Made by a program: the position numbers and the translations under genes. DNA of 64,000 nucleotides from Nyssa sinensis (taxonomy: Eukaryota > Streptophyta > Magnoliopsida > Cornales > Nyssaceae): assembly GCA_008638375.1 (NCBI GenBank), contig CM018035.1:27406307-27470306 (forward strand), given 5' to 3'. Below are positions 3,919 to 64,000 of this stretch, in pieces; within the stretch, counting starts at the first letter, position 1; every line of letters begins with the position of its first letter. Below the pieces are notes generated by a model. The model was given only the letters and a program-made list of their open reading frames with translations. It made no database searches and had not been told where the DNA came from.

Positions 3919-3921
<3 letters not shown>

Positions 3922-5628: not shown

Positions 5629-5638
5629 GTAGACGAAA

Positions 5639-37512: not shown

Positions 37513-37517
37513 TATAA

Positions 37518-37555
37518 TGTTATAACATGGAAAAAAAAAATTTTTATTATTATTA

Positions 37556-37595
<40 letters not shown>

Positions 37596-37884: not shown

Positions 37885-37928
<44 letters not shown>

Positions 37929-40379
37929 TATATATATATATATAGAAAAAGAGAGTGGTCTCGGGTGGGAAAGAAGAGAAGGAAAGAAGCAGAAAAGAAG
38001 GAGAGAAACAGAGCTCTGAAGGAGAGTTAGAGACCTGGTTCTAGCTCGGAGCAAGAGGGAGAAGGAAGGCACGGCTAGAGAGAGAAACGGCTGAGAAAAT
38101 TTGTAAGTGGGTCACTTCTGTTTCAATTTTTTTTAGAGCATTTCAGTTGATTTAAATTGTAGAACCTTGTAGAGCATCATGTAAGGATTAAAACGCAACA
38201 AAAATGATAGAAAACGGTTGAAAAATGAGGGAGAAAGAAGGAGGTGCAGGTCACGGCCATGGGGGGGGAGATCTGGTTTTTCGTTGTGATTGGAAGCTTC
38301 AAAACGATATTAAAAAGCTCCAAAAATGTTTTAGAACAAGTTGGGATCGAAAGGGGCTTTGAAAACACGAAGAAAATCAAGTTTAAAAACTTGATTTTCT
38401 GAAAATCCGGTCACCGGCGCCGGAGAGGGTGACCGGAGCTCCGCCGGAAAAACGGGGGGGAGAAGAGGGTCTGTCCGGGTCTGGGTCGGGTCCGGGTCGG
38501 GTCGGTTCGGTTCGGGTCCGGTTCGGGGCGGGCGTGGACCGCCCCTGCCACGTGTCGGCTCACCGTTTAAAAGAAAAAAAAAATGAAATAAAATAAAAAT
38601 AAAAATAAAAACCTAATTTGGACCGGGTTAGAAGGGGAAGGGGCTGAACCGGTCGGTTCAGTGGACTTTTAAACCGGTTTAGGGTTTTGGTTTAAAAACC
38701 CCCTGGTTCAAACCAAAGTTTAGGTTATTTATATTTTGAACCCCAAAACTTTTAATAATTATATTTTGACCCCTTAGCCTTTAAGAAATTAGAATTTGAC
38801 CCAAGACTTTTGGGTAATTATGTTCTGACCCTCATGAATAAAATATTAATTAAATTAATTAATTAATTAATTTAATTTAATTAATTAAATATTCAAAAAC
38901 ATCCCGGAGTCCAAATGGGACAAGTCATAGGTGTATTTTGACTATCTCGACCATTCTGAGACCAATGGTGAGGTCCGTTTTACGAGACGAGGTCCCGAAA
39001 AATAAAAGACCCGTAGTAACCCTTAAAATTACCAAAATGCCCCTAACTTGAAACACTGTCAGACGAACTCCGAATTAGGTAAACAAATAGTGAAATTTTA
39101 TTATCTCGAACATTCCGGACTCAACCGTGGAGTCCGATTTGTGAAAAGAGGTCACGAAATGTAAGGACACGTGTAAAGTGCAAAATGACTGTTTTGCCCT
39201 TTTGAACCCCGGTGTCCGAATTGAGTTCTACGAAAACCTAGACTTACTTTCTTAAACGCTCTAAAACCAATGGTAGAGTTTAATTTAGCAGAATAGAAAC
39301 CTATGAATTTAAAGACATAAAATTTGATGAATAGCATAAATTCAAACAACAATGGACTGAGTTGTAATTTCTACTTTTAGGGACACTGACAGGACAGGAG
39401 GAGGCGATCTGATCTCCTACATTTTCATCCGCCAGTTCAGTTACATATAGTTCACGATTTTCTAGGGTTGATACCAACCCATCAGGTATGGTGTTTTGCT
39501 AGTGTTAGAAATGAAGTTAAGTTAGGAATATTTGTGAATGACTGAATGCTGTATGTGTTTATCTGTAATGTGTTTACCTATTTATTTGGAATTGGTTGTT
39601 CACATGCTTACATGTTACTTGTACCTTATGAATATTTAGTGAATGATGAATGTGACTCACGACATGTGTATATGTTGATTTTACGAGATATGCTTGCATG
39701 TGGAATCAGTTAGGTGATTTATGTATTATTGTCTCGAGCATGCTATATTGTGGAAACCATGTATCATTGAGATTGCATTGACATATTGGCATATGATGAA
39801 TCCTTTGAGAACATGGCGTGGGTAAGCACGTGGTGCTTTGCATTATGAGGGTGTAGATCCTGTGGTGAAAAACCCAAAATTGGCCATTGCATTGGTACTT
39901 CGTGCCATCGGGGAGTACCCGTAAATGAGACATGGGTGTGGCATAGAGTTGTGCATGGGTGTGTCATGCATACCATTCATATATATTACCGCGATGTTTG
40001 AATGTCATTTAGAAATGAATGTACACTTTGCACATGCCACGCCTTAGCTTTATTTCTGGCATTAGCATTTCATCATACCAGCAGTTGTGCTGACCCATTC
40101 GTGGGCAACATTTTCAGATGAGGATCCTCCAGCCACATGAGACTTAGTGATGCCCTGAGAGGGCGAAGCACGTGATGTATTTGTGATCCATGAGACTTGT
40201 ATTTTGTTATGTAAGGGCTTAAGCCCGAATGACTGATGAACAATGTATTCGATGTTACTTTATGTATGGATGATGATGGACGCATGTTTATTGAATTTAA
40301 TTACTTTTGTCCTTTTGTTTACTTTACTTTCTGTCTCGTTACTCGCGCCCCGGGTTCGTGGGAAATTCGGGGCGTGACA
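37518..40379 (+). repeat. Element C left LTR
   Basis: Contains a (TTA)n tract (about 37541-37592), TA/TG-rich sequence, a (GA)n tract (37888-37925), a GGGTC-rich segment 38460-38525, two copies of the shared 'TCCCGAAAAATA' module near 38990 and the degenerate 39150, and the shared 100-bp block at 40021-40128. Confidence 0.95.
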
Positions 40380-40382
40380 ACG

Positions 40383-40394
40383 TGGTATCAGAGC
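40383..40394 (+). other. Element C primer binding site
   Basis: TGGTATCAGAGC, complementary to initiator tRNA-Met, three bases after the LTR end at 40379. Confidence 0.9.
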
Positions 40395-40588
40395 ATAGGT
40401 TCGAATACCTAGAGACTGTGGGGTGTTGTTTAACACCATGAGACCCTAGAGAAGAGAATAAGACTTAGCATGAACTGTTAGCAGCATGTGATAGGATCTT
40501 ATGTGCTACGTGATTATGTGTCCTAATGCATGCCTTATTGTGATTACGTGAAGAAGTGATACTAAAATTTTCTTTTGAACTTGTAGAT

Positions 40589-42292
40589 ATGCCTCCTAGA
40601 CGAGCTCCTACGAGAGGCAGACCACCCAGAGGGGGTAGGGGTAGGGGTGCGCCTCGAGGTGCCGCCCAGCCTCGTCGTGGCAGACCCAGAGCTGCTGCCC
40701 CTATTCCTGATGTGGTTGAGGAGGTAGTTGCCCCAGCTGACGTTCCTGAGCATAGTACAGCTGAGGAGGATGTTGCTCCAGCCCCTGTGGAGGAGGTGGG
40801 GCAGACTATTGGCGCCAGGGATTTGGCGACCATTATACAGGAGTGCTTCCGTGCCATGCAGGAGGCCAGGACCACTGAGGCTGAGGCCAGAGCTACTGAG
40901 GCCGAGGCCAGGGCTGCCGGTGCCGCGGCCAGAGCGGCCGGTGGGGAGACCAGAGACACCTTCGTCATGAAGGCGTTTCAGCATATGAGGCCACCGTCAT
41001 TTGCAGGACAACCTGATCCTTTGGTGGCCGAGGAGTGGTTGGACCAGATTGTGAGGATCCTGGACTCACTAGGGATTGTTGAGCCACACCTGAGGATACG
41101 ATGTGCCACCTTCCAGTTTACAGGGCTAGCGAGCCAGTGGTGGAAGGTATCTGCCGGCAGGATTAGCAGGTTCGGAGAGGGGTGGGATGCATTTGTGGCC
41201 ATGTTCAATGACCACTACTTTCCAGCGACTGCTAGGGTCGGGTTCAGGAGAGAGTTTGAGACCTTACTACAGAGGGACATGACCGTGACGCAGTATGAGT
41301 CCCAGTTTACCGCATTGGGCAGGTTTGCCCCGCACATTGTTGGGGTGGAGGAGCTGAGAGTTTATCATTTTCTAGAGGGGCTGAAGACCTCTATCAGGGA
41401 TAGACTGGCGGGTCACATCATTGACACTTACGAGGAGGCTGTGATCAGGGCCACGAGGGTAGAGAGGGAGTTGACAGCTCTCAGAGGGATTAGGGAGTCC
41501 TGGACTCAGACCAGGCCAGCCACAGCACTAGCACTTACACCAGCTCAGCCTACTGTGACCGTCCCAGCTCATTCTGGTAGGAGACCGCCGAAGAGGTTCC
41601 GAGGCGGTACCTCTTCTCCATCTACATCCCAGAGACCTATGCAGCTTTTAGCACCCCAGCCCACTATGTCTACTACTCCTCGAGGAGGGGCACCACAGCT
41701 GACCATCACATGCTACCAGTGTGGACAGCCTGGCCACAGGATGGCTGATTGCCCACAGAGAGATCCTAGTCAGGGATCAGGGACAGGACCGAGCCAGCTA
41801 CCACTCCCATCCCAGTCTCAGAGTCAGGCCTGGAGGGCCACACTAGTGTGCTATACATGTCATCAGCCGGGCCATGTCAAGGCCCACTGTCCTCAGGGGC
41901 AGACTTCCCAGAGCGCCCCGAGGTCCCACTATTTCCAGCCCACCCAGGTGCCTTTACCCCAGACACAGTCAGGTTACAGACCCCCAGCACCTTACTATCA
42001 GCCAGCATCTTCTGCATTGAGTGTTAGAGCTCCAGCCCCGAGAGGGGGAGGACAGCAGGGGCAGAGAGGGGGAGGCAGACAGGGTCAGACTGTACAGGGC
42101 AGGGTATACGCAGTCACTACCCCAGAGGCTTCTACTGCTGGGCCATCAGTAGTGCGAGGTATCTTTCTTATGTTCAGTTCATGGGCTAGCAGTGTTGATA
42201 GATTCTGGTGCATCGCATTCTTTCATATCCACTGCATTTGCCATGACATTGGGGTTGACTATAGACCGGTTAGATCCACCGCTACGTGTTGA
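40589..42292 (+). CDS. gag: Element C gag (Gag capsid and nucleocapsid)
   Basis: Structural protein that packages element RNA. The ATG at 40589 (MPPRRAPTRGRPPRGG) is preferred over the in-frame ATG at 40556 because related elements start with this basic MPPRR-type N-terminus. Order: Arg/Gly/Pro-rich N-terminus; Ala/Glu-rich helical stretch (residues ~95-125); Retrotrans_gag capsid core (~residues 130-260, with AEEWLDQIVRIL and FNDHYFPA); Pro/Ser/Thr linker; two CCHC zinc knuckles, CYQCGQPGHRMADC at 41711-41752 and CYTCHQPGHVKAHC at 41849-41890. The last ~40 residues after about 42180 are out of frame: the protease active-site triad region continues in another frame, so the native product would run on into pol. 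The open frame ends at 42292. Confidence 0.88.
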   Translation: MPPRRAPTRGRPPRGGRGRGAPRGAAQPRRGRPRAAAPIPDVVEEVVAPADVPEHSTAEEDVAPAPVEEVGQTIGARDLATIIQECFRAMQEARTTEAEARATEAEARAAGAAARAAGGETRDTFVMKAFQHMRPPSFAGQPDPLVAEEWLDQIVRILDSLGIVEPHLRIRCATFQFTGLASQWWKVSAGRISRFGEGWDAFVAMFNDHYFPATARVGFRREFETLLQRDMTVTQYESQFTALGRFAPHIVGVEELRVYHFLEGLKTSIRDRLAGHIIDTYEEAVIRATRVERELTALRGIRESWTQTRPATALALTPAQPTVTVPAHSGRRPPKRFRGGTSSPSTSQRPMQLLAPQPTMSTTPRGGAPQLTITCYQCGQPGHRMADCPQRDPSQGSGTGPSQLPLPSQSQSQAWRATLVCYTCHQPGHVKAHCPQGQTSQSAPRSHYFQPTQVPLPQTQSGYRPPAPYYQPASSALSVRAPAPRGGGQQGQRGGGRQGQTVQGRVYAVTTPEASTAGPSVVRGIFLMFSSWASSVDRFWCIAFFHIHCICHDIGVDYRPVRSTATC

Positions 42293-42384
42293 TACTCCTG
42301 TTGGGGGTAGTGTGACATTGACCTAGGGTTTGTAGGGGTTGTTCACTTGAGATAGCTGACCGTACTCTCTGCTTTGATTTTATT
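42180..42384 (+). pseudogene. Element C protease segment, interrupted by two frameshifts
   Basis: The retropepsin signature DSGASHSFIS is encoded at about 42206-42235 in the frame +1 relative to gag. It follows a single-base shift around 42180-42200. A second shift follows near 42322, at ACC-TAG-GG where one extra T creates a stop, after which the frame of the main pol ORF resumes. Both breaks are one-base indels. They could be real inactivating mutations or consensus errors in the assembly. Confidence 0.75.
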
Positions 42385-44616
42385 GTGCTTGATATGACTA
42401 GCTTCGACATTATCTTGGGTATGGATTGGCTGTTTACCTTCCGGGCTAGCATCGATTGTTTCAGGGGGAGAGTTACAGTGTGTACCCCTGAGGGGGATTG
42501 CTTTTATTTCACGGGAGATCGTGGGGACTTCTTAGTACCACCCTTGTACGACTCTAGGAGTTGGGGAGCCCATAGCTATATGTTGGCTAGTATGATTGCA
42601 GGGGATAGTGAGGCTACAGGGGTTGTATTACCACCAGTGGTAGAGGAGTTTCCTGACGTGTTTCCCGACAGTTTGACTAGTTTACCCCCGAGGCGGGAGG
42701 TGGAGTTTACCATTGAGCTTATCCCCGGTACTGTACCCATATCTATTCCACCATACCGCATGGCTCCAGCAGAGCTGAGAGAGCTGAGAGAGCAGCTGAC
42801 TGACCTTCAGGGTAAGGGGTTCATCCGTCCTAGCACTTCTCCTTGGGGTGCCTCAGCACTCTTTGCGAAGAAGAAGGACGGGACGTTACGGTTATGTGTG
42901 GACTACCGGAGGCTGAACCGGGTGACTATTAAGAACAAGTACCCGTTACCCAGGATCGATGACTTGTTTGATCAGTTGAGAGGTTCGAGATGTTTCTCGA
43001 AGATTGATCTTCGGTCTGGGTATCATCAGTTGAGAGTGCGAGAGGAGGACATAGCGAAGACAGCCTTCCGCACTCGCTATGGTCACTTTGAGTTCGTGGT
43101 GATGCCATTTGGTGTGACGAATGCCCCAGCGGCATTCATGGATCTGATGCACCGTGTCTTCGGTCAGTACATAGATCAGTTCGTGGTGGTGTTTGTGGAC
43201 GATATCTTGATTTACTCACCTTCTGAGGATGAGCATGCTTTCCACCTACGGACTGTGTTACAGATCTTGAGAGAGCATAGGCTGTTTGCCAAGCTCTCCA
43301 AGTGCGAGTTCTGGCTCCAGGAGGTGCAGTTTTTGGGTCACGTGGTATCTGGGAGTGGAGTATCTGTTGACCCTTCGAAGGTCGACTCTGTTATGAGCTG
43401 GGAGAGGCCGAGGAATGTATTTGAGATACGGAGTTTCTTGGGGTTAGCAGGGTACTACCGCCGTTTTGTAGAGGGATTTTCCCGACTTGTCGCACCGATG
43501 ACCCGGCTGACGCGCAAGGGCGTCAGATTTCAGTGGACCGACGACTGTGAGCAGTCATTTCAGGAGCTGAAGAGGAGATTGACTTCAGCTCCCGTCCTGA
43601 TTATCCCCGAGGGAGGCCTGGGTTATACAGTGTACTGTGATGCTTCCCGAGAGGGACTGGGTTGTGTATTGATGCAGGAAGGCCGGGTAGTAGCTTATGG
43701 TTCTCGCCAGTTGAAGAGCCATGAGAAGAACTACCCCACCCACGATCTAGAGTTGGCTGCCGTCATCTTTGCTCTTAAGAGCTGGCGACACTATTTATAT
43801 GGGGTGAGATTTGAGGTGTTCTCGGACCACAAGAGCCTCAGGTATATCTTTACACAGAAGGATCTGAACCTTCGACAGAGGAGATGGATGGAGTACCTAG
43901 AGGACTACGACTTTGACCTTCAGTACCATCCTGGGAAGGCCAACGTCGTAGCGGATGCACTCAGTCGGAGACCGAGCAGCACCTTAGCCAGCCTAGCCAT
44001 CAGAGAGTGGGAGATGATGGGAGTTATTGGGGAGTTTGACTTAGAGCTTACCGAGTCTGAGGGACACGCCACCCTATTCAGCCTGTGTATACAGCCTACC
44101 CTTCTGACCAGAGTTATAGAGGCACAGTTGCTGGATACCGAGGCTGAGCAGATCAGGGCACAGATTGCTAGCCCCGAGGGATTTGAGGGATGGACAGTCC
44201 ATTCTGACCTTGGTCTGAGATACAGGGGTAGGGTCTTCGTTCCCGAGTCTCTTAGGACTGATGTCCTTAGGGATTTCCACCATTCACGCTTGGCGGTGCA
44301 CCCAGGGGGCACCAAGATGTATCATGATCTGCGCCGTCAGTATTGGTGGACTGGGATGAAGGCAGATGTGGCACAGTTTGTGGCTAGGTGTCTCACGTGC
44401 CAGCAGGTGAAGGCTGAGCACCAGAGGCCTGGAGGTTTGCTACAGCCACTACCGGTCGCCGAGTGGAAGTGGGAGCACGTTACCATGGATTTCGTGGTGG
44501 GTCTTCCGAGGTCACCTAGGGGCCATGATGCGATTTGGGTTATTGTGGACAGACTGACGAAGTCCGCCCATTTCTTACCGATCAGAGTGACTGACTCATC
44601 AGACTGCCCTCAGTAG
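42385..44616 (+). CDS. pol: Element C pol: reverse transcriptase, RNase H, integrase N-part
   Basis: Copies element RNA into DNA and begins integration. The shown start is the first Met in frame; the true product is a gag-pol polyprotein. Order: protease/RT linker ([10 protein letters not shown], ~residues 7-16); RT with the palm motif F270-V-D-D273 (YxDD variant) and [11 protein letters not shown] upstream; RNase H at ~residues 405-530 (D in VYCDAS, E in DLELAAV, D in FSDHKSL); integrase zinc-binding HHCC ([11 protein letters not shown] ... CLTCQQ at about 44278-44405) and the first catalytic Asp in [12 protein letters not shown] near 44486. All catalytic residues seen are intact. The frame closes at TAG 44614-44616 because of a one-base shift around 44600-44610. 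Confidence 0.9.
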
Positions 44617-44617
44617 G

Positions 44618-45529
44618 TTGTACATTCGAGAGATAGTACGACTACATGGGGTACCGGTATCCATAGTTTCTGACAGGGACCCACGTTTCACTGCACGGTT
44701 CTGGCAGAGCTTCCAGACAGCCTTAGGTACCCAGCTGCAGTTTAGTACTGCCTTCCACCCACAGACAGATGGCCAGTCAGAGCGCACTATTCAGATCTTG
44801 GAGGATATGCTCAGGGCCTGCGTCATGGACTTTAGAGGTAGCTGGGAGGACCACCTTGCCTTAGTTGAGTTTGCCTACAACAACAGCTACCAGTCCAGCA
44901 TTGAGATGGCACCATTTGAGGCATTATATGGTAGGCCGTGCCGCTCCCCGGTATGTTGGACTGAGGTGGGAGAGACAGCTGCCTTAGGACCTGATATTGT
45001 TCGTGAGACCACGGACAAGATACAGGTGATCAGACAGCGGTTGTTGACAGCTCAGAGCCGCCAGAGGAGTTATGCAGATAGGAGGCGGCGGCCCTTGGCA
45101 TTTGAGGTGGGGGACCATGTGTTCCTCAAGGTATCTCCCAGACGAGGCTTGAGGAGATTTGGGCGCGGTGGGAAGCTATCGCCACGATTTATAGGCCCCT
45201 TTGAGATTCTTGGGAGGGTTGGTGAGGTGGCTTATAAGCTAGCCTTACCACCACAGCTATCTGGGGTTCATGACGTCTTCCATGTATCTATGCTGAGGAA
45301 GTACCATCCTGACCCCTCACATGTACTTGACTGGGTAGATCTTCAGTTAGAGGGGGACGCTTCCTATGATCAGAGACCCGTAGAGATATTGGACTCGAGG
45401 GACCAGGTTTTGCGAGGCAGGACCATCCCTTTGGTCAAGGTTCGTTGGAACCACCATGGGGTTGAGGAGGCTACGTGGGAGCGTGAGGCCGAGGTTCGAG
45501 TTAGGTACCCTGAGTTGTTTGATCAGTGA
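44618..45529 (+). CDS. Element C pol C-part: integrase core end and chromodomain
   Basis: Continues integrase after the frameshift near 44605; the first residues of the true frame are [16 protein letters not shown] from about 44606. It contains the second catalytic Asp in IVSDRDPRF (near 44665) and the Glu in DGQSERTIQ (near 44780), completing the DDE triad. Then comes the GPF/Y-like module ([20 protein letters not shown], near 45190) and a C-terminal segment [16 protein letters not shown] ... [20 protein letters not shown] (about 45380-45500), which fits a plant chromodomain used for heterochromatin targeting. Ends TGA at 45527-45529, 65 bp before the right LTR. Confidence 0.85.
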
Positions 45530-45580
45530 TGTATTTTCTTTTGGTTCTATGTTATTTTAAATTTTGGGACGAAATTTTTG

Positions 45581-45594
45581 TAAGGAGGGAAGGA
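45581..45594 (+). other. Element C polypurine tract
   Basis: TAAGGAGGGAAGGA directly before the right LTR start at 45595; plus-strand priming site. Confidence 0.85.
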
Positions 45595-45637
45595 TGTTAT
45601 AACATGGAAAAAAAATTTTTTTATTATTATTTATTTA

Positions 45638-45670
<33 letters not shown>

Positions 45671-45964
45671 AACAATTATTGGATGTATGTATATATGTAT
45701 ATATATATATATGTGTATATATATATATGTATAAATTTAAGGTATTTATTTAATATATGTGTGTGTACCTGTGAGTGTATATTTAAAAGTGAATATATAT
45801 ATATATATGGGTGTAGAACAGTGTGTGTATGTGTGTGTGCCGGTTGTGTGTGTGTGTGTGACCTTGAGTGTTACACACTCAAAGGGGTATGGGGTGAGGT
45901 TGAGTGTGTGAGTAGGATTCAGGGAGTGGGAGAGTGCAGAATCAGCAGAGAGTGGTTGGCCTTG

Positions 45965-46004
<40 letters not shown>

Positions 46005-48437
46005 TAGAAAAAGAGAGTGGTCTCGGGTGGGAAAGAAGAGAAGGAAAGAAGCAGAAAAGAAGGAGAGAAACAGAGCTCTGAAGGAGAGTTAGAGACCTGG
46101 TTCTAGCTCGGAGCAAGAGGGAGAAGGAAGGCACGGCTAGAGAGAGAAACGGCTGAGAAAATTTGTAAGTGGGTCACTTCTGTTTCAATTTTTTTTAGAG
46201 CATTTCAGTTGATTTAAATTGTAGAACCTTGTAGAGCATCATGTAAGGATTAAAACGCAACAAAAATGATAGAAAACGGTTGAAAAATGAGGGAGAAAGA
46301 AGGAGGTGCAGGTCACGGCCATGGGGGGGGAGATCTAGTTTTTCGTTGTGATTGGAAGCTTCAAAACGATATTAAAAAGCTCCAAAAATGTTTTAGAACA
46401 AGTTGGGATCGAAAGGGGCTTTGAAAACACGAAGAAAATCAAGTTTAAAAACTTGATTTTCTGAAAATCCGGTCACCGGCGCCGGAGAGGGTGACCGGAG
46501 CTCCGCCGGAAAAACGGGGGGGAGAAGAGGGTCTGTCCGGGTCCGGGTCGGGTCCGGGTCGGTTCGGGTCCGGTTCGGGGCGAGCGTGGACCGCCCCTGC
46601 CACGTGTCGACTCACCGTTTAAAAGAAAAAAAAAATGAAATAAAATAAAAACCTGATTTGGACCGGGTTAGAAGGGGAAGGGGCTGAACCGGTTGGTTCA
46701 GTGGACTTTTAAACCGGTTTAGGGTTTTGGTTTAAAAACCCCCTGGTTCAAACCAAAGTTTAGGTTATTTATATTTTGAACCCCAAAACTTTTAATAATT
46801 ATATTTTGACCCCTTAGCCTTTAAGAAATTAGAATTTGACCCAAGACTTTTGGGTAATTATGTTCTGACCCTCATGAATAAAATATTAATAAATTATTAA
46901 TTAAATTAATTAATTAATTAATTAATTAATTAATTTAATTAATTAAATATTCAAAAACATCCCGGAGTCCAAATGGGACAAGTCATAGGTGTATTTTGAC
47001 TATCTCGACCATTCTGAGACCAATGGTGAGGTCCGTTTTACGAGACGAGGTCCCGAAAAATAAAAGACCCGTAGTAACCCTTAAAATTACCAAAATGCCC
47101 CTAACTTGAAACACTGTCAGACGAACTCCGAATTAGGTAAACAAATAGTGAAATTTTATTATCTCGAACATTCCGGACTCAACCGTGGAGTCCGATTTGT
47201 GAAAAGAGGTCACGAAATGTAAGGACACGTGTAAAGTGCAAAATGACTGTTTTGCCCTTTTGAACCCCGGTGTCCGAATTGAGTTCTACGAAAACCTAGA
47301 CTTACTTTCTTAAACGCTCTAAAACCAATGGTAGAGTTTAATTTAGCAGAATAGAAACCTATGAATTTAAAGACATAAAATTTGATGAATAGCATAAATT
47401 CAAACAACAATGGACTGAGTTGTAATTTCTACTTTTAGGGACACTGACAGGACAGGAGGAGGCGATCTGATCTCCTACATTTTCATCCGCCAGTTCAGTT
47501 ACATATAGTTCACGATTTTCTAGGGTTGATACCAACCCATCAGGTATGGTGTTTTGCTAGTGTTAGAAATGAAGTTAAGTTAGGAATATTTGTGAATGAC
47601 TGAATGCTGTATGTGTTTATCTGTAATGTGTTTACCTATTTATTTGGAATTGGTTGTTCACATGCTTACATGTTACTTGTACCTTATGAATATTTAGTGA
47701 ATGATGAATGTGACTCACGACATGTGTATATGTTGATTTTACGAGATATGCTTGCATGTGGAATCAGTTAGGTGATTTATGTATTATTGTCTCGAGCATG
47801 CTATATTGTGGAAACCATGTATCATTGAGATTGCATTGACATATTGGCATATGATGAATCCTTTGAGAACATGGCGTGGGTAAGCACGTGGTGCTTTGCA
47901 TTATGAGGGTGTAGATCCTATGGTGAAAAACCCAAAATTGGCCATTGCATTGGTACTTCGTGCCATCGGGGAGTACCCGTAAATGAGACATGGGTGTGGC
48001 ATAGAGTTGTGCATGGGTGTGTCATGCATACCATTCATATATATTACCGCGATGTTTGAATGTCATTTAGAAATGAATGTACACTTTGCACATGCCACGC
48101 CTTAGCTTTATTTCTGGCATTAGCATTTCATCATACCAGCAGTTGTGCTGACCCATTCGTGGGCAACATTTTCAGATGAGGATCCTCCAGCCACATGAGA
48201 CTTAGTGATGCCCTGAGAGGGCGAAGCACGTGATGTATTTGTGATCCATGAGACTTGTATTTTGTTATGTAAGGGCTTAAGCCCGAATGACTGATGAACA
48301 ATGTATTCGATGTTACTTTATGTATGGATGATGATGGACGCATGTTTATTGAATTTAATTACTTTTGTCCTTTTGTTTACTTTACTTTCTGTCTCGTTAC
48401 TCGCGCCCCGGGTTCGTGGGAAATTCGGGGCGTGACA
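45595..48437 (+). repeat. Element C right LTR
   Basis: 2843 bp, near-identical to the left LTR. Differences seen: shorter (GA)n and no (TA)n run after it near 46003, a ~10-bp deletion in the GGGTC repeats, an expanded ATTA tract near 46890-46930, and about eight transitions. Confidence 0.95.
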
Positions 48438-50861: not shown

Positions 50862-53800
50862 TGTAACACCCCGGCCCGACTAAGAATCATTAAATCACTA
50901 AATATTAATTAGCAACCGAGACGTTAAGTAACGAGGCCGATTTCGAATCCCAACACGTGAGCTTTCAGTAAAAGTCCCGAAATCCAGGACGACTGTACAT
51001 CACTTTCATTGCAATCACCAAATTGTTTTTGATGATCTCATTGAAATTGCATATTTTCACGTCAACCGCCAACCTCTGATTACGATTATTAAATTTAGGC
51101 ATGAACATTACGTAAACAAATAAATCAATATTAATAATAATATTATTATAAGAAAAATAAAAAAAATATAAAATATAAATACATATATATATATATATAT
51201 AAATATATGTGTATATATATATGTAATTAAATATACATAATGCAAGAATAAATTAAATAATATACAAGTATATGTATGTATATATATGAGTACGGTTGCC
51301 TCATATATATATGAAAGCAATACATTTATATATATATATATATATATGTAAACTAAAGATTAAAGCAAAGAATTTAATGGAAAGAAAAGAAATGAAGTGA
51401 GAAGAAACTAGACTTAAGTGGAAGGATTTAGAAGAGTTAGTGGCTACAGTTGTTCTCCATATGATGAAGAATGGTCAGCAGCCATGTGAGAGTGAGAAAC
51501 AATGACCATGATCTGTACACCATGCAAAATGGCAGCCAACAGGTGGCACCATCACCATCCTCAAGGTCGGTTTTAAAAGAGAAATTGGGAAGAAAGAGAA
51601 TGAGAAATACGTAGAAAAAGGAGAGAATCTAAAAAAGAAAGGGAACTAAAGAATAGAAGAAAGGAAATTTTGGAAAAATAGCCAACATAACAGGTATAAT
51701 TTCGGTTGAAATATATTTAGTTATGTTTTAGATTTAAAGCATGCAAGTACAGGATCTTAATTTACATAGTATGAGCTATATTTTGCAAAAATTATGACTG
51801 AAAATCGTGTAGAATCGAGTGAGAAAATTTGAAATTCAGATTGAACAATAATTTGAAATTGTTAGTACAGATCTGAATTGGTGTAAACTAAACCTAAATT
51901 TGAGTATTGAGACCTCAATAAGGCCTTATTAGTATTTCCAAAACACAAGACCGCGACTCTAAATCTCAAAGAATAGACCCTAAAACCTTAGTTGCAGGTT
52001 TCGGTCATAAAACCCAGTCCTCACTTTAGACCCTTAAACCCACATTTGAGGATAAGAACATGAACCCCACAAAAAATGAATCATCCCAGAAGAAACTCCA
52101 TGGCTTTTGACTCAAAAATGAGTTTGTAGGGCCAAGTTGCAGGTCTTAGTATCAAATTCCAAACCACGACCATGAGCCCAAACTTGAACCCCAAATCAAT
52201 GCCAAACCATCCTTTGATATGACAGAAATGGTTTGGATTCAATAACAGGAAGTTTCAGTGGTGTAAAATCCACGAAATTGGAAGTTTAGGTTTGCAGAAA
52301 TTAGGGCAACACAAGGGTGAGTTGGGAGAAGACGATGAACAGTGACGGGTTATGGGTCGGACCTCGGGTCGGGTCCTGACCTGATGTTTTAAGTAGGATC
52401 TGGGTCACTCAAAGTTACGACATTTTGATTAGTTTTTTAAATTTAAAACGTTAGGGCTGACGTCATCATTACATGATGAACTGGCTAAATCGGTTGGTCC
52501 AGTAAAACTTTAGACCGGTTCACTTAAAAATAACATGAACCCACTGGTTCAAAGCAGTACTTCAGGAAATTGCAACCTGACCCCAGAAGTTTTGGGAAAT
52601 TCCACTAAAGCCTAGACAGAAAAATTAATAAAATATTTCAATAAGAAAACTTTCAAAAATACCCCTAAGCCAAAAATGGGTCAAACAAAGTCCAAATAAA
52701 ATAAACAAATAGTGTATTTTAACTATTTTAGACATTTTTAACCTAATGGTGGGGTCCGTTTCACAAGACGGGACTCTAAAAAAATAAGACACGTTAAAGT
52801 GTAAATTACTAAATTGCCTCTATCATGCCCAAAGCCAAATTAAAAGCCGAGAAAGTCTATTGACTTTCTTCGACGTTCCGGACTCAATGGTAAGGTCCAT
52901 TGTATGAAATGAAGTACAGAAAAATATGGCACGTAAATATGTGAAGTTAAGAAAGCAACCCGAAAAGTTAATGACGCTATCAGAAAAGTATACATTAGGA
53001 TAATAACGCTTAAGGTAAAAGTTAGGATTTAAAACGATCTAAGCATAAATTAAGAATATCAATAGGAAATATTTGAAGTACATATGAAGTTAATAGATTA
53101 TTTATGAATTGTTTTTAGGAACTACAAAGGGGAAAGGAAAGGCACTGCAATAGAGTAACCCTAAGGACTAAGGTGGGTAACCCTGCATTTGAAATGGAGA
53201 TTTAAATCCACGGATTTGATGATATTTTAAATTTCAAAATATCTGAAGCATTGTGTGTTAAATTCAATATTTCGTGATTCCTGTTTTAAAATATTCTGTT
53301 CTTATAAATCTTATTGTGACATGCTCAGTGAGTGATTTTTATTATAGTTATCCTTGAAAGTATTTAACATGTTTACATGTTCTGAAATTGTTTATTCCAA
53401 GTATTTGAAGATTCTATCATGTAGTCATGAACATCATGTTTTAAATGCTCATAAAAAAGCATTTCTTGAAGAAGTCATGTTTAAATGCTCATAAAAAGTA
53501 TTTCTTAAAGAGGCTAAAGTTTTGCAAGATAATGATGCATAAGCATCGCAAATTATTTTGCACCCTTCGGGTTCTCAATCCAAAAGAATGTCCGGTAGCA
53601 GGATCTAATCCCCCAAGCATGAGATCTCTCAAAAGTAAAAGGAGAGTCTGGTTCGAAACAGATTCCACCTAACCAAAGAGAAAAGATGCCAAACGCTTTT
53701 GAAAATGGAAGCAGGTTTTACCCCAATTTTCACTATGCATGTTTATATGTTTTGAAGTGCATATACTCTATTTGAAGAAATATATATTAGCTTTAATACT

Positions 53801-54604
53801 TTAAATGTTTTAAAGCTATCTGTTATGAAGAATGCATGTACTCTATGTTCAAAATATACGAGCAATTGGTAGTGAGTATTTTATAAACTCTCATGTGCGA
53901 AACCACTGCCAATTGAAAACCCACGACAAATGCTAGAATTACTCACTGGGCTACTTGAAGCTCACCCTATTCCCTAACATTTTTTCAGATATTGATGATG
54001 AATGGGAGCCTTGCCCAAATTTAAGGACTAGCGATTAACGACTCTATTATGATGACGGGCTTTTGAAAATACTAGGACTTGTAGATGGTCAAATTTTGAT
54101 GTAGTAGATTTTGGACAAATATGTACTTAAGCCCGAGAGGCAATCGAATATGTAATATGTATAAAACTTTATAATTTTATTTATGCTCTGAATGTATATT
54201 CATGTGTATTGCTATGAAGAGCGGCAGTACCGAACAGATGTGCGAAAGATTCAAATAAGAAAAGAAAAGAAAAAGTTTTTCATGCTTCTGCGAACACAGG
54301 CTGCACCGCCATCCGATATTGTTGCTTATGTGAGCCTTGCCCTAAAGTCCTCGGGCCGAAGGGTGGCGGTCGCAATACGAGATCCACACAGGGTGGGTTA
54401 CTACTATGAAGAGTGGTAGTACCGAACAGATGTGCGAAAGATTCAAATAAGAAAAATAAAAATAAAAAATTTCACGCTTCCGTGAACACAGGCCATACCG
54501 TTATCCGATACTGTTGCTTATGTGAGCCTTGCCCTAAGGTCCTCGGGCCGAAGGGTGGCGGTCGCGATACGAGATCCCAATAGGGTGGGTTTCGGGTCGT
54601 GACA
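50862..54604 (+). repeat. Element D left LTR
   Basis: Contains (TA)n-rich sequence at 51180-51350, shared LTR modules at about 52730-52935, and a ~192-bp direct duplication close to its 3' end (54211-54402 and 54403-54595) that the right LTR lacks. Confidence 0.92.
54211..54595 (+). repeat. ~192-bp direct duplication at LTR 3' end
   Basis: Units begin GCTATGAAGAGCGGCAGTAC and ACTATGAAGAGTGGTAGTAC and both run through the CCTCGGGCCGAAGGGTGGCG block to GGGTGGGTT. The right LTR (59426-59615) has one unit, which accounts for most of the LTR length difference. Confidence 0.88.
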
Positions 54605-54607
54605 GAG

Positions 54608-54620
54608 TGGTATCAGAGCA
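54608..54620 (+). other. Element D primer binding site
   Basis: TGGTATCAGAGCA three bases after the LTR end; initiator tRNA-Met type. A second, decayed copy, TGGTATCAGAACA, lies at about 54692-54704. Confidence 0.85.
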
Positions 54621-54784
54621 ATAGGTTAATGGTCTTTGGGGAAGATCGTGATTAAGGTTTAGAAGTAATTAAGATTTCTGATACCACGGAGTGGTATCAG
54701 AACACTAGGTTGACTTAAACAAACTTAGTGACACTAGAAGAATTAGAAACAGAATTATGGATTAGGTAAGTTCTAGTTACCTAA

Positions 54785-54955
54785 AATATGTGAAGTATGT
54801 GACGTGATGGGAAGGCGGGGTAAGGGACCCGCCATACATGAAGTAGATATGTAAAGTATATGACATGATGGTAAGGCAGGGTATGGGACCCACATTATAT
54901 AAAGTAGTTATGTGAAGTATGTGATATGACGTGAAGGCGGGGTATAGGACCCGTG
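54785..54955 (+). repeat. 61-bp tandem repeat, three copies
   Basis: Units start TATGTGAAGTATGTGACGTG, TATGTAAAGTATATGACATG and TATGTGAAGTATGTGATATG, each followed by a GGCGGGGTA(T/A)GGGACCC block. Confidence 0.85.
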
Positions 54956-55364
54956 GTAGATTAGAAGGAATAAAGTCTGAAAATTAGAAGTAAATGTAAC
55001 GAGAAAAGAGAAAGGCAGGATTTTGACAGTCACTAGTGTGTTATCAGGACCTTTGTTACCAGGTAAGCAATGGCCACCTTATCATGTAACTAAGGGAATT
55101 GAGAAACACACAGTGCTACCTTATCCAACCATATTGAGGAAATCCTTAAACCATAGGAAGACATAAATCTAGTATGTGACATAGAGAATTAGAAATTGTA
55201 CGTTAGTGAATTAGAAGCAAGTAGTGATACGAGTGAACCTACTACCTATCTTAAAATGATGAATCAAAGTTCACCTCTTGAATCACTAAGTAAATGAATA
55301 TAACCTTATGTATTACGGTACATGAAAATAAATTAATAACTATTATTCTTTTGTAACAGAAATA

Positions 55365-55935
55365 ATGGTAAATACACAAGGGAATACAGATAATCCTAAT
55401 GAGAGCTTGGACAGGATCGAACGAATCTTGGAGACAGTAGTGTCAATCGTAAGTAGTGTCCAAACCCTGAGAAGGGGCACAACAGCAAGCGCAAGATCCC
55501 CGACCATCTTTACACCAGGGATAACCTACTATAGCAAGAATCAAAGGGAATGCCTGGGGTGAGACTTCCAGAAAAAGGAAGAACAAGGAGATCGATGGAA
55601 AAGATAATACCCGTCAAAGGGGTATGAACAATCCACTGTGTTCGACCTGCCGAAAGTACCATTATGGAATCTGTCGACGTCTCACTAAGGCCTGCTACAG
55701 GTATGGGAAGGCTGGGTACCATATAAAGGATGGCCCAAAATGGAACCAAGCTATCAAAGAACCCACGAAAGTAGCTTCTTTAGCCACACCACAAATCCAG
55801 ATCCTGACAACTGAGAATCCGGAAGGAAATAAAGAACCTCTGGAATATGGTCGAATATTCAATTCCTTCCCTGAGGCTACCCCGACCCTTGTTGGTCATT
55901 TAGGTACACCATCTAATACTCAAATTTCTATCTAA
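55365..55935 (+). pseudogene. Element D gag remnant with decayed zinc knuckles
   Basis: First piece from ATG 55365 (MVNTQGNTDNPNESLDRIER...) resembles a gypsy gag N-terminus with a helical segment. After a stop at 55560 a second frame at 55624 reads CSTCRKYHYGICRRLTKACY then RYGKAGYHIKDGP, a double knuckle in which later Cys and His ligands are lost (for example Gly where the last Cys is expected). The capsid core between them is absent, implying an internal deletion. Not functional. Confidence 0.6.
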
Positions 55936-56057
55936 TATGTATATGATTGTCGTTCAATTTCGATTACTAGACACATGAATATGATAGATAGAAATAACGT
56001 AAGGAGACTAGAACTCTTGGATAAAGAAAACTCGAGTTTTGAGGACAAAACTCTTTT

Positions 56058-56070
56058 AAAGGAGGGAGAA
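56058..56070 (+). other. Element D polypurine tract
   Basis: AAAGGAGGGAGAA immediately before the right LTR at 56071. Confidence 0.85.
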
Positions 56071-56500
56071 TGTAACACCCCGACCCGATTAAGAATCATT
56101 AAATCACTAAATATTAATTAGCAACCGAGACCTTAAGTAACGAGGCCGATTACGAATCCCAACACGTGAGCTTTCAGTAAAAGTCCCGGACTCCAGGACG
56201 GACTGTACATCACTTTCATTGAAATCACCAACTTGTTTTTGATGATCTCATTGAAATTGCATATTTTCACTCAACCGCCAACCTCTGATTACGATTATTA
56301 AATTTAGGCATGAACATTATGTAAACAAATAAATCAATATTAATAATAATATTATTATAAGAAAAATAAAAAAAATAAAAAATAAAAAATATAAATACAT
56401 ATATATATGTATATATATATGTAATTAAATATACATAACGCAAGAATAAATTAAATAATATACAAGTATATGTATGTATATTTATGAGTACGGTTGCCTC

Positions 56501-56532
<32 letters not shown>

Positions 56533-59500
56533 GAAAGCAATACATTTATATATATATATATGTAAACTAAAGATTAAAGTAAAGAATTTAATGGAAAGAA
56601 AATAAATGAAGGGAGAAGAAACTAGATTTAAGTGGAAGGAATTAGAAGATTTAGTGGCTGCAGCTGTTCTCCATATGACGAAGAATGGTCGGCAGCCATG
56701 TGAGAGTGAGAAACAATGACCATGAGCTGTACACCATACAAAAATGGTAGCCAACAGGTGGCACCATCACCATCCTCAAGGTCAGTTTTAAAAGATAAAT
56801 TGGGAAGAAAGAGAATGAGAAATACGTAGAAAAAGGGAGAGAACCTGAAGAAGAAAGGGAACAGAAGAACAGAAGAACAGAAGAAAAGGAGATTTTGGAA
56901 AAATAACCAACATAATAGGTATAATTCCGGTTGAAATATATTTAGTTATGTTTTAGATTTAAAGCATGCAAGTACAGGATCTTAATTTACATAGAATGAG
57001 CTATATTTTGCAAAAATTATGACTGAAAATCGTGTAGAATCGAGTGAGAAAATTTGAAATTCAGATTTAACAATAATTTGAAATTGTTAGTACAAATCTG
57101 AATTGGTGTAAACTAAACCTAAATTTGAGTATTGAGACCTCAATAAGGCTTTATTAGTATTTCCAAAACACAAGACCGCGACTCTAAATCTCAAAGAAAA
57201 GACCCTAAAAACTTAGTTGCAGGTTTCAGGTCATAAAACCCAATCCTCACTTTAGACCCCTAAACCCACATTTGAGGATAAGAACATGAACCCCATGAAA
57301 AATGAATCATCCCAGAAGAAACCCCATGGCTTTTGACTCAAAAATGAGTCTGTAGGGCCAAGTTGCAGGTCATAGTATCAAATTCCAAACCACGACCATG
57401 AGCCCAAACTTGAACCCCAAATCAATGCCAAACTATCCTTTGATATGCCAGAAATGGTTTGGATTCAATAATAGGAAGTTTTAGTGATGTAAAATCCACG
57501 AAATTGGAAGTTTAGGTTTGCAGAAATTAGGGCAACACAAGGGTGAGTCAGGAGAAGACGATGAACATTGACGGGTTATGGGTCAGACCTCGGGTCGGGT
57601 CCTGACCCGATGTTTTAAGTAGCATCCGGGTCACTCAAAGCTACGACATTTTGATTAGTTTTTTAAATTTAAAACGTTAGGGCTGACGTCAGCATTACAT
57701 GATGAACCGGCCAAACCGGTTGGTCCAGTAAAACTTTAAACCTGTTCACTTAAAAATAACATGAACCCACTGGTTCAAACCGGTACTTCTGGAAATTGCA
57801 ACCTGACCCCAGAAGTTCTGGGAAATTCCACTAAAGCCTAGACAGAAAAATTAATAAAATATTTCAATAAGAAAACTTTCAAAAATACCCCTAAGCCAAA
57901 AATGGGTCAAACAAAGTCCAAATAAAATAAAAAAATAGTGTATTTTGACTATTTTAGACATTCTTAACCTAATGGTGGGATCCGTTTCACAAGATATGAC
58001 TCCAAAAAAATAAGACACGTTAAAGTGTAAATTACTAAATTGCCTCTATCATGCCCAAAGCCAAGAAAGTCTAAATTGACTTTCTTCGACGTTCTGGACT
58101 CAATGGTAAGGTCCATAGTATGAAATGAAGTACAAAAAAATATGGCACGTCAATATGTGAAGTTAAGAACGTAACCCTAAAAGTTAATGAAGCTACTAGA
58201 AGAGTATACATTAAGAGAATAACGCTTAAGGTAAAAGTTAGGATTTAATAATATCTAAGCATAAATTAAGAACATCAATAGGAGATATTTGAAGTACATA
58301 TGAAGTTAATAGATTATTTATGAATTGTTTTTAGGAACTACAAAGGGGAAATGAAAGGCATCGCAATAGAGCAACCCTAAGGACTAAGGTGAGTAACCCT
58401 GCATTTGAAATGGAGATTTAACTCCACGGATTTGAAGATGTTTTAAATTTCAAAATATCCGAAGCATTGTGTTAAATTCAATATTTCGTGATTCCTGTTT
58501 TAAAATATTCTGTTCTTATAAATCCTATTGTGACATGCTCAGTGAATGATTTTTATTACAGTTCTCCTTGAAAGAATTTAACATGTTTACATGTTCTGAA
58601 ATTGTTTATTCCAAGTATTTAAAGATTCTATCATGAAGTCATGAACATCATGTTTTAAATGCTCATAAAAAAGCATTTCTTGAAGAAGTCATGTTTAAAT
58701 GCTTGTAAAAAATATTTCTTGAAGAAGCTAAAGTTTTGCAAGATAATGATGCATAAGCATCGCAAATTATTGAGCACCCTTCGAGTTCTCAATGCAGAAG
58801 AATGCCCGGTAGCAGGATCTGATCCCCTAGGCATGAGATCTCTCAGAAGTAAAACGGGAGTCTAGTTCGAAACAGATTCCACCTAGTCAAAGAGAAAAGA
58901 TGGCAAACGCTTTTGAAAACGGAAGCAAATTTTACCCCAATTTTCACTATGCATGTTTATATGTTTTGAAGTGCATATACTCTATTTGAAGAAATATATA
59001 TTAGCTTTAATACTTTAAATGTTTCAAAGGTATCTGTTATGAAGAATGCATGTACTCTATGTTCAAAATATACGAGCAATTGGTAGCGAGTATTTTATAA
59101 ACTCTCATGTGCGAAACCACTGCCAATTGAAAACCCATGACAAATGCTGGAATTACTCACTGGGCTTCTTGAAGCTCACTCCATTCCCTAACATTTTTTC
59201 AGGTATTGATGATGAATGGGAGCCTTGCCCAAATTTAAGGACTGGCGATTAACGGCTCTATTATGATTACGGACTTTTGGAAATACTAGGACTTGTAGAT
59301 GGTCAAATTTTGATGTAGTAGATTTTGGACAAATATGTACTCAAGCCCGAGAGGCAATCGAATATGTAATATATATAAAACTTTAGAATTTTATTTATGC
59401 TCTGAATGTATATTCATGTGTACCGCTATGAAGAGCGGCAGTACTGAACGGATGTGCGAAAGATTCAAATAAGAAAAGAAAATAAAAAAATTTTCATGCT

Positions 59501-59626
59501 TCCGCGAACACAGGCCGCACTGCCATCCGATACTGTTGCTTATGTGAGCCTTGCCCTATGGTCCTCGGGCCGAAGGGTGACAGTCGCGATACGAGATCCG
59601 CACAGGATAGGTTTTGGGTCGTGACA
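56071..59626 (+). repeat. Element D right LTR
   Basis: 3556 bp; collinear with the left LTR apart from the single-copy 3' unit and microsatellite length. Ends GTGACA before ATCAG. Its 3' end is 771 bp upstream of the OPR start codon, in the same orientation. Confidence 0.92.
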
Positions 59627-60878: not shown

Positions 60879-62342
60879 TGTCACGACCCGAAATCCGCCT
60901 CGCGCGGACCTCGTGTCGGGACTGCCGCCTGCAGATCCGGGGGCCTTGAGACAAGGCTCACATAAGCAGCGGTATCGAATAGATGTATAACATGTGGTTT
61001 GCGGAAGCGTGAAAAAAAAAATTTTCTTTTCTTTTCTCATTTTAAAATTTGCACATCCGTCCGGTATTGCTGCTCTTTACATTGCAGTATACATGATTAT
61101 ACATTCAGAGCATAATTAAAACTTAAAGTCTTTATAATTAATACATGTTTAACTGCCCCACGGGGCTTAATACATAACAGTTTACTACTTCCTAATACAA
61201 AAGCTACTATTAAAGTCCATAGTGTTCCACAAAAGATACTACTTAAACAACCCCTCCAAAAACGGCCAGACTCTTCACCATCGTCATCAAAATCAAGACT
61301 GCTGCTAATCACCTGAAAGGAGGACGGATAAAATCCGGGTAAGCTAATCTAAGCTTGTGAGTAATTCCTGCATTCGTCATAAGGTTTTCAATTGGTAGTG
61401 GTTTTGTACATGAGAGTTATAAAATACTCACTACCAATTGCTCGTACTTTTAGAACATAGAATATTTGCATTCTTAAAATAGATAGCTTTGAAACATTTA
61501 AAGTATTCAAACTAAACATACATTTCTTCAAGTAGAGTATATGCACTTCAAGAACATATAAACATGCATGATAAAAATGGGGGTAAAAACCTGCTTCCAT
61601 TTTCAAAAGCGTTTGTCATCTTTTCTCTTTAATTAGGTGGAATCTGTTTCAAACCAGACTCCCGTTTTACTGCAATGCTACAATGGAGATATCTCATTTG
61701 CCTAGGGAATTAGATCCTGCTACTGGGCATTTCTTCATGTCATAGTTGAATCCCAAAGGATTTCAACGTCGCATGTGGTACTTAAGTACCCTTTATCTTA
61801 TAAAACATTTATCACATGGCTTCTTCAATAGATACTTTTCATGAGTATTTAAAACATGAAATACATAACTTCTGCAATAGAACTTCAAATACTTGGAATA
61901 ATCAAATTCAGAGTATTTAAGGAATTGACATTTTACTCAGACATGCTAAATATTTCTAAGAAAGGAACTGCATAAAAACATTTACGGAGCATGTCATAAC
62001 AGAATATTTTAAAACAGCAATCATATAAAGACTGAATTTGATATTCAAATGCTTCACATAACTTGAACTCAAAACTTCTTCAAATATATGGAGTTAAATC
62101 TCCACTTCAAATACAGGGTTACGTCACTTTATGTGTCGGGGCCGGCTCTACTGAGGCGCCTTCCCTTTACCCTTTTCCTTTCTTAACCTAACATGATTTA
62201 TGTAGATTTCATAAATTCTGTATGCACTTAATCATCTTCATGACTTACCAATTGTAGACTATGCAAGACTAAATTTTTAAAATCGGTCTAACTCATAGCT
62301 GTATTATAGACTAGTCATTTATGTATTTAATGATAATAAATA

Positions 62343-62597
62343 TTACCTGCGGCGCATTTCAGCTAGGGTTTCGGTGTTCTCTCTTTCTTCTTCCTCTTTT
62401 TCTTCCTTAAGCTTTGCCTCAGCAAGTCTCCTTGCTACAACTTCATGCATAAATCGTCCCATTGGGACGATTGGGGTCCAATATCTGAATGGCGTAAGGG
62501 AGATGATCTCATAGGTTTTGGCGATCCTTATCTTCCTGTGGATCACCCTATGCTGCAAATCTAGTTCGTCCCTGAATTCTTGTTGTTTCTTATCCAT
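62343..62597 (-). CDS. Hypothetical 84-residue ORF inside the antisense LTR
   Basis: Not recognised. It starts MDKKQQEFRDELDLQHRVIH at 62597 in a good context (CTAAATGGA). A middle part holds IIS-LTPFRYW-PIVPMGRFM; then comes a strongly charged helix (AEAKLKEEKEEEERENTETL) ending EMRRR. The stop TAA overlaps a splice-donor-like CGCCGCAG|GTAATAT, so the ORF could be the end of a first exon. A TGTTAG acceptor-like site follows ~160 bp further along the - strand. Element D LTRs have no counterpart of this segment. It may be a captured host exon or a chance ORF; base composition is less AT-rich than its surroundings. Confidence 0.3.
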   Translation of the reverse strand: MDKKQQEFRDELDLQHRVIHRKIRIAKTYEIISLTPFRYWTPIVPMGRFMHEVVARRLAEAKLKEEKEEEERENTETLAEMRRR

Positions 62598-63169
62598 TTA
62601 GAGATTTCTAGGTTTTAACTTAAAACACAAATCCAACATATTAGAAATTATTTCTATTTCAACTATACTCTTCTAGTAGCTCCATTAATTTTTAATTTAA
62701 ATTTAATTACTTCACATGTTTACGTGTCGTATCCTTACGTATCTTATTTTTTACGTATGAGCCTTAGTTTAGTACTTTGGCAAATGGTTTAGTTCATAGC
62801 CCCCTGACTGATGCTATTCATCAAATTTTATGTCTCTTTATTTTAGACATCTCTTTTGGTTGAATAGACTCTACCATTGAGTCCGGAACGTCAAAGAAAG
62901 TCAACTTAGGCTTTCGCGGAACTCCGTTTTGGTTTGGTAGCAGTAGGGGCATTTTGGTCATTTTAGCATTTTTATGGGTCTTTAATTTTTTGGAATCTCG
63001 TCTCATGACGTGGACCTCACCATTGGATTCAGGAGGTCTGAGATAGTAAGAATACACTAATAACTTGTTAATTTTGGACAACGGCTATTTTTGACATTAT
63101 TTATTTTTAATAAATTAATTTCATCAAGTATTACATATATATATTTTGGTTGCATAAAGGGTTGGATGA

Positions 63170-63260
63170 AATGGGTGGCACGCTGACCAGCGTGTCACCT
63201 CCCCTCTAAAAGATACTGCGTTCGAGTCTCCATAGGTGCGTATGCACCTTTTTATTTTTT
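63170..63260 (+). other. tRNA-like module 1 (A box, B box, hairpin, oligo-T)
   Basis: A-box-like TGGCACGCTGACC from 63176; B-box-like GCGTTCGAGTCTCC with TTCGA at 63221 (45 bases after the A-box T; tRNA positions T8 to T54 are normally 46 apart). A hairpin AGGTGC-GTAT-GCACCT lies at 63234-63249, then T-runs at 63249-63253 and 63255-63260, which would serve as a Pol III terminator. There is no acceptor-stem pairing, so it is not a tRNA gene. Confidence 0.45.
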
Positions 63261-63317
63261 GGTTTTATTAAATATATAATATATATATATATATTTTGTC
63301 ACATATGTCTCACACGC

Positions 63318-63405
63318 GTGCGCGTGGCCGAGTGGAAAGGGAGGGGGTTTAGGCGCGTGGCGTCAGGGGTTCGAACCCCAGGAACTGCGGTTCCTCATTT
63401 TTTTC
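63318..63405 (+). other. tRNA-like module 2 (A box, B box, hairpin, oligo-T)
   Basis: Perfect A box TGGCCGAGTGG at 63325-63335 and B box GGTTCGAACCC at 63368-63378, with TTCGA again 45 bases after the A-box T. A hairpin AGGAAC-TGCG-GTTCCT lies at 63380-63395, then seven or more T from 63398. Every element has the same order as module 1, offset by 146-149 bp, but the hairpin sequence is different. Confidence 0.5.
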
Positions 63406-64000
63406 TTAATTTTTTGAAGCCAAACGGTGGACAGGGCATTAAACGCGTATAAGTCACCTTATCCGCGTTTAGGATATTAAATAGGACTCTAAACCGTGTT
63501 ACCAAATGGCCTAATTCTGATTTTTTTTAAAACAAAAAACCCTACGTCCAAAACGACGTCGTGTTATTTATGCGGTGGCTAATTCGTAAGCCATCACGTG
63601 TCTGAGTTAACTCACAGAGCCTAACCGAGACACTCGAGTCAACTCATCGTCTTCCTCTTCATCACCCACGACTGTTGCCCTAATTCTGATTTTTCTTTTT
63701 CTTCAATTTCGTGAGTTTTTAATCATTCTTCACTCTCTGTTTTCATCCCCATCCATTCCCATAACATTAAGGATAGGTTTTGCATTCATAATAGGGTTCG
63801 AATTGGTCTTATTAGCTCGAGCAGAGGGTTGATAACCCAACCTGCAACTTGTTCGTATATGCTCATTTTTGAGCAAAAATGATTGAGGTTTGTTCTGTTG
63901 TGATCCATTTTCCATAAGGTTTCATTCCTCATTCTTTAAACCTAGTTTTGGTGTGAGTTTCAGAGTTTTGTTTTCAAAACCAAAACCTGTAACTCGTGTT

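Follow-up and report, generated by a model that had tools for sequence, protein, structure and literature searches.

A long terminal repeat (LTR) of gypsy type in the genome of Nyssa sinensis carries two short units, in which an A box, a B box and a T-run occur in the order and at the spacing of a type 2 Pol III transcription unit, the A box of the first unit being weak. With a probability of roughly 0.6, they represent an old antisense type 2 (tRNA-like) Pol III cassette of gypsy-type LTRs, which usually contains two units about 150 bp apart. The retention of the boxes and of the terminal hairpin, while the rest of the sequence drifted, suggests that a short RNA, so far unrecognized, may be made within the element. 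The window is the whole stretch of DNA that was analyzed (64,000 nucleotides), and all comparisons were made within one genome of 1.0 Gb.

Architecture of the units and of the host LTR

Unit 1 (63135-63253) and unit 2 (63273-63404) follow a common plan, consisting of a (TA)n tract, an A-box-like motif, the pentamer TTCGA, a terminal hairpin of 16 nt (6-bp stem and 4-nt loop) and a T-run. Their features and the LTR that hosts them are, in window coordinates:

60879..65007 (4129 bp; in the window 60879..64000), - strand: solo LTR of gypsy type hosting both units, with ends TGTCACGACCC and GGGTATTACA
63135..63144, + strand: (TA)n tract of unit 1 in a TATA-like position, ending about 31 nt before the A box
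63175..63198, + strand: near-palindrome of 24 nt in unit 1, overlapping the weak A box
63219..63229, + strand: B box of unit 1, CGTTCGAGTCT, agreeing with 7 of 9 consensus positions
63234..63253, + strand: terminal hairpin of unit 1, AGGTGC-GTAT-GCACCT (63234-63249), and T-run (63249-63253)
63273..63293, + strand: (TA)n tract of unit 2, ending 31 nt before the A box
63313..63326, + strand: 5' hairpin of unit 2, CACGC-GTGC-GCGTG
63325..63335, + strand: A box of unit 2, TGGCCGAGTGG, agreeing with 9 of 9 consensus positions
63368..63378, + strand: B box of unit 2, GGTTCGAACCC, agreeing with 9 of 9 consensus positions
63380..63395, + strand: terminal hairpin of unit 2, AGGAAC-TGCG-GTTCCT, with a loop of the UNCG type closed by C-G
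63398..63404, + strand: T-run of unit 2, Pol III terminator-like, with a mean identity of 0.94 in 28 copies

TTCGA is located at 63221 in unit 1, 45 nt after a TGGC at 63176, and at 63370 in unit 2, 45 nt after the start of the A box at 63325; the two pentamers are 149 bp apart. These coordinates confirm the two-unit plan proposed in a preliminary description of this DNA, including its boxes, 45-nt spacing, hairpins of 6-bp stem and 4-nt loop, T-runs and 149-bp offset. The A boxes claimed there hold for unit 2, whereas that of unit 1 (TGGCACGCTGA) is weak and overlaps the near-palindrome. The (TA)n tracts preceding the A boxes and the 5' hairpins had not been part of that description.

Both units repeat a (TA)n-TTTTG lead-in, which suggests that an ancestral unit may have been doubled in tandem; the resemblance between their upstream halves exceeds that of shuffles (z>3) in only 2 of 50 copies. 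The upstream half of unit 1 varies by subfamily (L001-L098), containing either the 24-nt near-palindrome or long hairpins around CACGGGATTGTCCTGTC, while the B box, hairpin and T-run of the same unit stay across subfamilies. One LTR (L105) contains three units, the first two of which are nearly identical and arranged in tandem, and looks like a case of recent doubling.

The sequences flanking the solo LTR of the window (GGTGA and AGTGA) are alike at 4 of 5 bases, and a related solo LTR of 4812 bp (L072) is bordered by a perfect 5-bp duplication, GAGGA. Read in the sense of the LTR, the units lie approximately 1.6-1.8 kb from its 5' end and point the opposite way. Their orientation can be established in a homologous element with two LTRs (L071, the one such carrier that was examined), which contains units in both LTRs. 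There, the + strand has the primer-binding site after the LTR end, while the units occupy the - strand; they are thus antisense to the LTR, as previously proposed. The sequence directly after the first LTR, AGAGTGGTATCAGAGC, is presumably a match to initiator tRNA-Met. The interior of this element spans 1.1 kb and its longest listed reading frame encodes 102 amino acids with a CCHC zinc knuckle (PF00098), which identifies it, at the level of sequence, as a non-autonomous element with a gag remnant. At the same locus, where the element occupies 978-9940, the - strand has a further unit-like site at about position 234, within different LTR sequence.

The assignment of the host LTR to the gypsy type is based on a neighboring element (37517-48437), to whose LTR it is 76-77% similar over about 180 bp and whose reading frame has a Tf2-1-like SH3 domain (PF24626) at its end. 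This neighbor, whose 2.9-kb LTRs are 97% identical and surround the frame, is likely to be a once-autonomous Ty3/gypsy element; the motif scan found no unit in its LTRs. The two LTRs of a second neighbor (50862-59625) are related to the host LTR, measure 3.6-3.7 kb, share 93% identity with each other and contain no units; its interior of 1.5 kb includes no listed frame of 120 aa. Elsewhere in the window, self-comparison revealed tandem repeats at 10838-12143 (offset about 164 bp) and at 25288-25818 (offsets about 114 and 171 bp).

Recurrence and conservation of the units in related LTRs

A loose motif scan of the window, run on both strands, retrieved the two units and one weak site, and 20 locally shuffled windows gave 19 matches in all, i.e., the plan arises about once per 64 kb. 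At these settings, its presence at this one locus would not convince alone. A chance pairing of motifs is ruled out by the recurrence of the units in relatives that were picked without reference to them, through the sequence on either side. Copy searches scored the best 40 of 1143-6819 candidates per query. With the upstream flank as query (62760-63060, 301 bp), the motif scan detected at least one unit in 37 of the best 40 of 6819 candidates, and none in the other three (L075, L081, L096). The downstream flank (63420-63720, 301 bp; best 40 of 1230 candidates) provided 28 newly examined copies, namely those in which the match begins near the unit, and all 28 have a B box, a hairpin and a T-run directly upstream. 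The other members of these 40 are four that were already known to bear units (the window itself, L046, L027 and L002) and eight that were left out, in which the match starts over 100 bases into the query. Identity to the query amounts to 69-73% in 26 of the 28 copies and to 86-88% in two. In a raw scan of 65 copies, two units were found in 54, one in 10 and three in 1; four of the 121 raw segments were dropped as false or misread, leaving 117 for analysis.

The boxes are present in these sister copies, as the preliminary description had expected. An A box agreeing with at least 7 of 9 consensus positions was found in 26/28 last units of the downstream-flank set (35.5% of shuffles) and in 29/35 of the upstream-flank set (33.5% of shuffles), and in 15/21 and 23/32 first units (26-27% of shuffles); the A-box part of unit 2 is missing in some copies (L078, L086). 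The distance from A box to TTCGA was counted for unique best A boxes, a first measurement having broken ties towards 45. It is 43-45 nt in 20 of 24 such last units of the downstream-flank set and in 28/28 of the upstream-flank set. (TA)n tracts are present in 27/28 and 35/35 last units, respectively, ending at a median of 30 nt before the A box in the downstream-flank last units and of 32-33 nt before the chosen A box in the first units of relatives. Hairpins at the 5' side with a score of at least 5 were detected in 17/28 and 24/35 last units, against 25-29% of shuffles.

The degree of conservation differs between the parts of the unit. Mean identity to unit 2 of the window in the 28 copies is 0.85 for the A box and 0.85 for the B box, as compared with 0.71 for the spacer between them; together with the T-run, the boxes are thus better kept than the spacer, as judged by raw means. 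The stem, also at 0.71, drifts like the spacer yet stays paired.

Pairing of the terminal stem and the strand it serves

By a strand-neutral score, the stem is kept in 28/28 and 34/35 last units and in 21/22 and 32/32 first units. A contiguous stem score of at least 4 was reached by 90 of the 117 units (17.6% of shuffled segments), of at least 5 by 67 (3.9%) and of at least 6 by 47 (0.75%). Covariation was studied in an alignment of 37 register-matched last units, from which 26 of 63 were excluded by eye due to another hairpin register (e.g., the TTAC loop class), near-identity to a kept row or decay. Paired cells make up 82.4% of this alignment, compared with 76.9% (sd 1.1) in shuffles, cells changed on both sides number 17 against 7.3, and the covariation score is 0.302 against 0.216; none of 500 shuffles was as high on any of these. 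Two further measures gave no excess in the same alignment, namely the number of pairs changed on both sides (331/500 shuffles as high) and the number of further pair types (456/500). The proposal that structure rather than sequence is kept in the stems therefore stands with regard to pairing and two-sided changes, and finds no addition in the latter two measures; independent variation of the stem positions, which had been named as the opposite outcome, is not what the 37 copies display. Common descent accounts for part of the similarity among units. A parsimony count of separate stem changes was discarded as too noisy, its tree resting on about 85 bp.

A genome-wide pattern for one hairpin class, in which the B box, outer stem and T-run were fixed and the two inner pairs and the loop were free, was found at 73 places, and at none for a reversed control. 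Both free pairs are Watson-Crick in 64 of the 73, five of these 64 involving a two-sided change (GA/TC in three, AG/CT in two). Reduction to 51 distinct rows leaves 94 pairing cells out of 102, where the shuffled mean is 87.0 and 1 of 5000 shuffles was as high. The stems seen include AGGAAC/GTTCCT, AGGGGC/GCCCCT, AGGAGC/GCTCCT, AGGGAC/GTCCCT, AGAGGC/GCCTCT and AGGTGC/GCACCT.

The loops bear on the question of the strand. At 47 of the 73 free-stem places the loop is TNCG (N being G, T or A), the reverse complement CGNA occurs at none of the 73, and a G..A loop occurs at nine. A UNCG loop closed by C-G is a stable RNA tetraloop, and the TNCG loops therefore point to an RNA of the unit strand. 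They are found in 18/28 downstream-flank and 11/34 upstream-flank last units, and in 0/53 first units; the loop TTAC is present in 11 last units overall, nine of them in the upstream-flank set. The ratio of G-T to A-C cells was also considered as a strand test and brings no decision: the non-Watson-Crick cells comprise 29 G-T and 42 A-C in the flank-chosen units, and 5 and 1, which are small numbers, in the free-stem pattern set. It lends no support to the unit strand. Many copies are probably dead insertions that decay by C-to-T change on both strands, which would blur this test. Folding energies do not separate the strands either, the z-scores of the two strands being weak for unit 2 (-1.28 and -0.80) and alike for unit 1 (-2.45 and -2.52).

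Predicted product, alternative readings and known elements

From the sequence we infer transcription of the units, an RNA product and selection for that RNA. The TATA-like (TA)n tract and the A and B boxes would recruit TFIIIC, TFIIIB and Pol III, transcription would begin some 10-20 nt upstream of the A box and end at the T-run, and the product would be an RNA of approximately 90-110 nt. This RNA would have a hairpin at its 5' side and, just before the U-tail, a short terminal one, often UNCG-capped in the case of unit 2. Selection for such an RNA might reflect a role in termination or stability, in countering LTR-sense transcription or in maintaining an open LTR. A wider proposal, which is put forward tentatively and at less than even odds, is that these LTR retrotransposons possess antisense small-RNA genes of their own, in which doubled Pol III units would yield structured RNAs of about 100 nt, often ending in a hairpin of the UNCG type, and diverged LTR families would have retained the units through selection for the RNA itself. 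The antisense small RNA could, for instance, regulate the element's own sense RNA or keep the LTR free of silencing.

Several candidates for the origin of the units were checked. No tRNA or tRNA cloverleaf was recognized in them by ARAGORN or Rfam; an Rfam search of 63000-63600 at E<=5 gave no match at all, and hence no 5S rRNA-like sequence, and another gave ten weak matches far below gathering scores, none of them to tRNA. On these results, a cellular tRNA or other Rfam family is ruled out. A pattern of B box, GGGGC-TNCG-GCCCC hairpin and TTTTATTTTT was found at 34 places (none for the reversed control), and the first 20, all of one hairpin class, were matched with AT-runs masked, orientation required and E<=1e-3. 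All 20 match LTR copies upstream and all 20 downstream, some upstream matches covering unit 1; an unmasked first pass of the same places had given 20 and 19 flank matches. No free-standing, SINE-like copy was present among these 20 of 34 places, which argues against two independent SINE insertions. On reading the sequence, no target duplications were noticed round each unit in the window, and no poly-A tail was seen. The lack of a visible tail and the LTR flanks of the 20 copies weaken the pair of decayed SINEs that had been named as the main alternative, and leave an old SINE origin as a less probable candidate. Most of the checks put forward in the preliminary description thus come out in favor of its reading of the structure.

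Such an old origin, i.e., a single tRNA-derived SINE inserted into an ancestral LTR, doubled in place and copied passively, so that the boxes persist by descent alone, is considered rather unlikely. The A and B boxes do resemble tRNA-Ser/Leu boxes. A SINE insertion has also been proposed as the origin of Helenus by Kojima (2024, PMC10886601). However, the better preservation of boxes and T-run than of the spacer among diverged LTRs, stems that were rewritten yet remain paired, the lack of a visible poly-A tail and the location of 20/20 unit-selected copies of one hairpin class in LTRs do not fit passive copying.

Two other readings concern the use of the sequence. The hairpins might have their role in the LTR-sense (Pol II) transcript or in the DNA, e.g., in folding, packaging or as a regulatory site, with the Pol III appearance partly incidental. 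The near symmetry of the hairpin between strands, the excess of A-C cells (G-U on the LTR-sense strand) over G-T cells and the about equal folding of unit 1 on either strand agree with it, but it leaves the kept A and B boxes and their spacing, the T-run, the near-fixed (TA)n distance and the TNCG loops on the unit strand, without any CGNA, unexplained, and it is judged improbable. It is still less probable that the units are sites that bind TFIIIC without being productively transcribed and that function as a chromatin boundary or insulator, for which ETC sites and tDNA insulators are precedents. The preferential retention of the A and B boxes over the spacer and the doubling, which suits a binding array, would both be expected of such sites, whereas a terminal hairpin and a T-run are not required for TFIIIC binding and yet both are kept.

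If the reading as an antisense Pol III cassette is correct, its doubled, hairpin-ended units would give retrotransposons another route to Pol III. They would also be a plausible origin of short plant RNAs overlooked by annotation, and would allow the retention of RNA structure within a long terminal repeat to be tested directly. Plant SINEs derived from tRNA begin with an A/B-box head of similar spacing; unlike them, the units have no free copies among the 20 places of one hairpin class and show no visible poly-A tail. The titles and abstracts listed by searches of a PMC library that lacks most subscription papers and all preprints include no description of a Pol III unit placed antisense in a large LTR.

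Among the published elements identified in these searches, Cassandra and Helenus come closest; both are miniature and have Pol III-type sequence in short LTRs. The Pol III promoters described so far in LTRs belong to such miniature elements, which they serve as promoters of their own. Cassandra is a TRIM whose LTRs include a 5S rRNA-derived Pol III promoter and terminator (PMC7215508; also PMC10853983), and thus shares with the units the presence of small-RNA-gene-like Pol III signals and terminators inside a plant retrotransposon LTR (PMC7215508). By contrast, the boxes of the units are of tRNA-like type 2 and not 5S, and the units are antisense, doubled, equipped with a terminal hairpin and located in non-miniature LTRs of 4-5 kb. 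Helenus, a TRIMp3 treated together with Ajax, has a tRNA-derived sequence in the LTR, a total length of 311-1263 bp and, as the only plant example given there, a Selaginella element with a 120-bp LTR (Kojima, 2024, PMC10886601). Common to Helenus and the present elements are an LTR with tRNA-like A and B boxes and, in plants, target duplications of 5 bp. The Helenus boxes are treated in that paper as a promoter belonging to the element itself, which in our reading of the discussion places them in sense orientation (PMC10886601). The LTRs described here (4129 bp in the window, 4812 bp in L072) exceed this miniature size, and their units are antisense to the LTR and followed by a hairpin and a T-run. 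The units thus differ from Cassandra and Helenus in strand, LTR size, doubling and hairpin.
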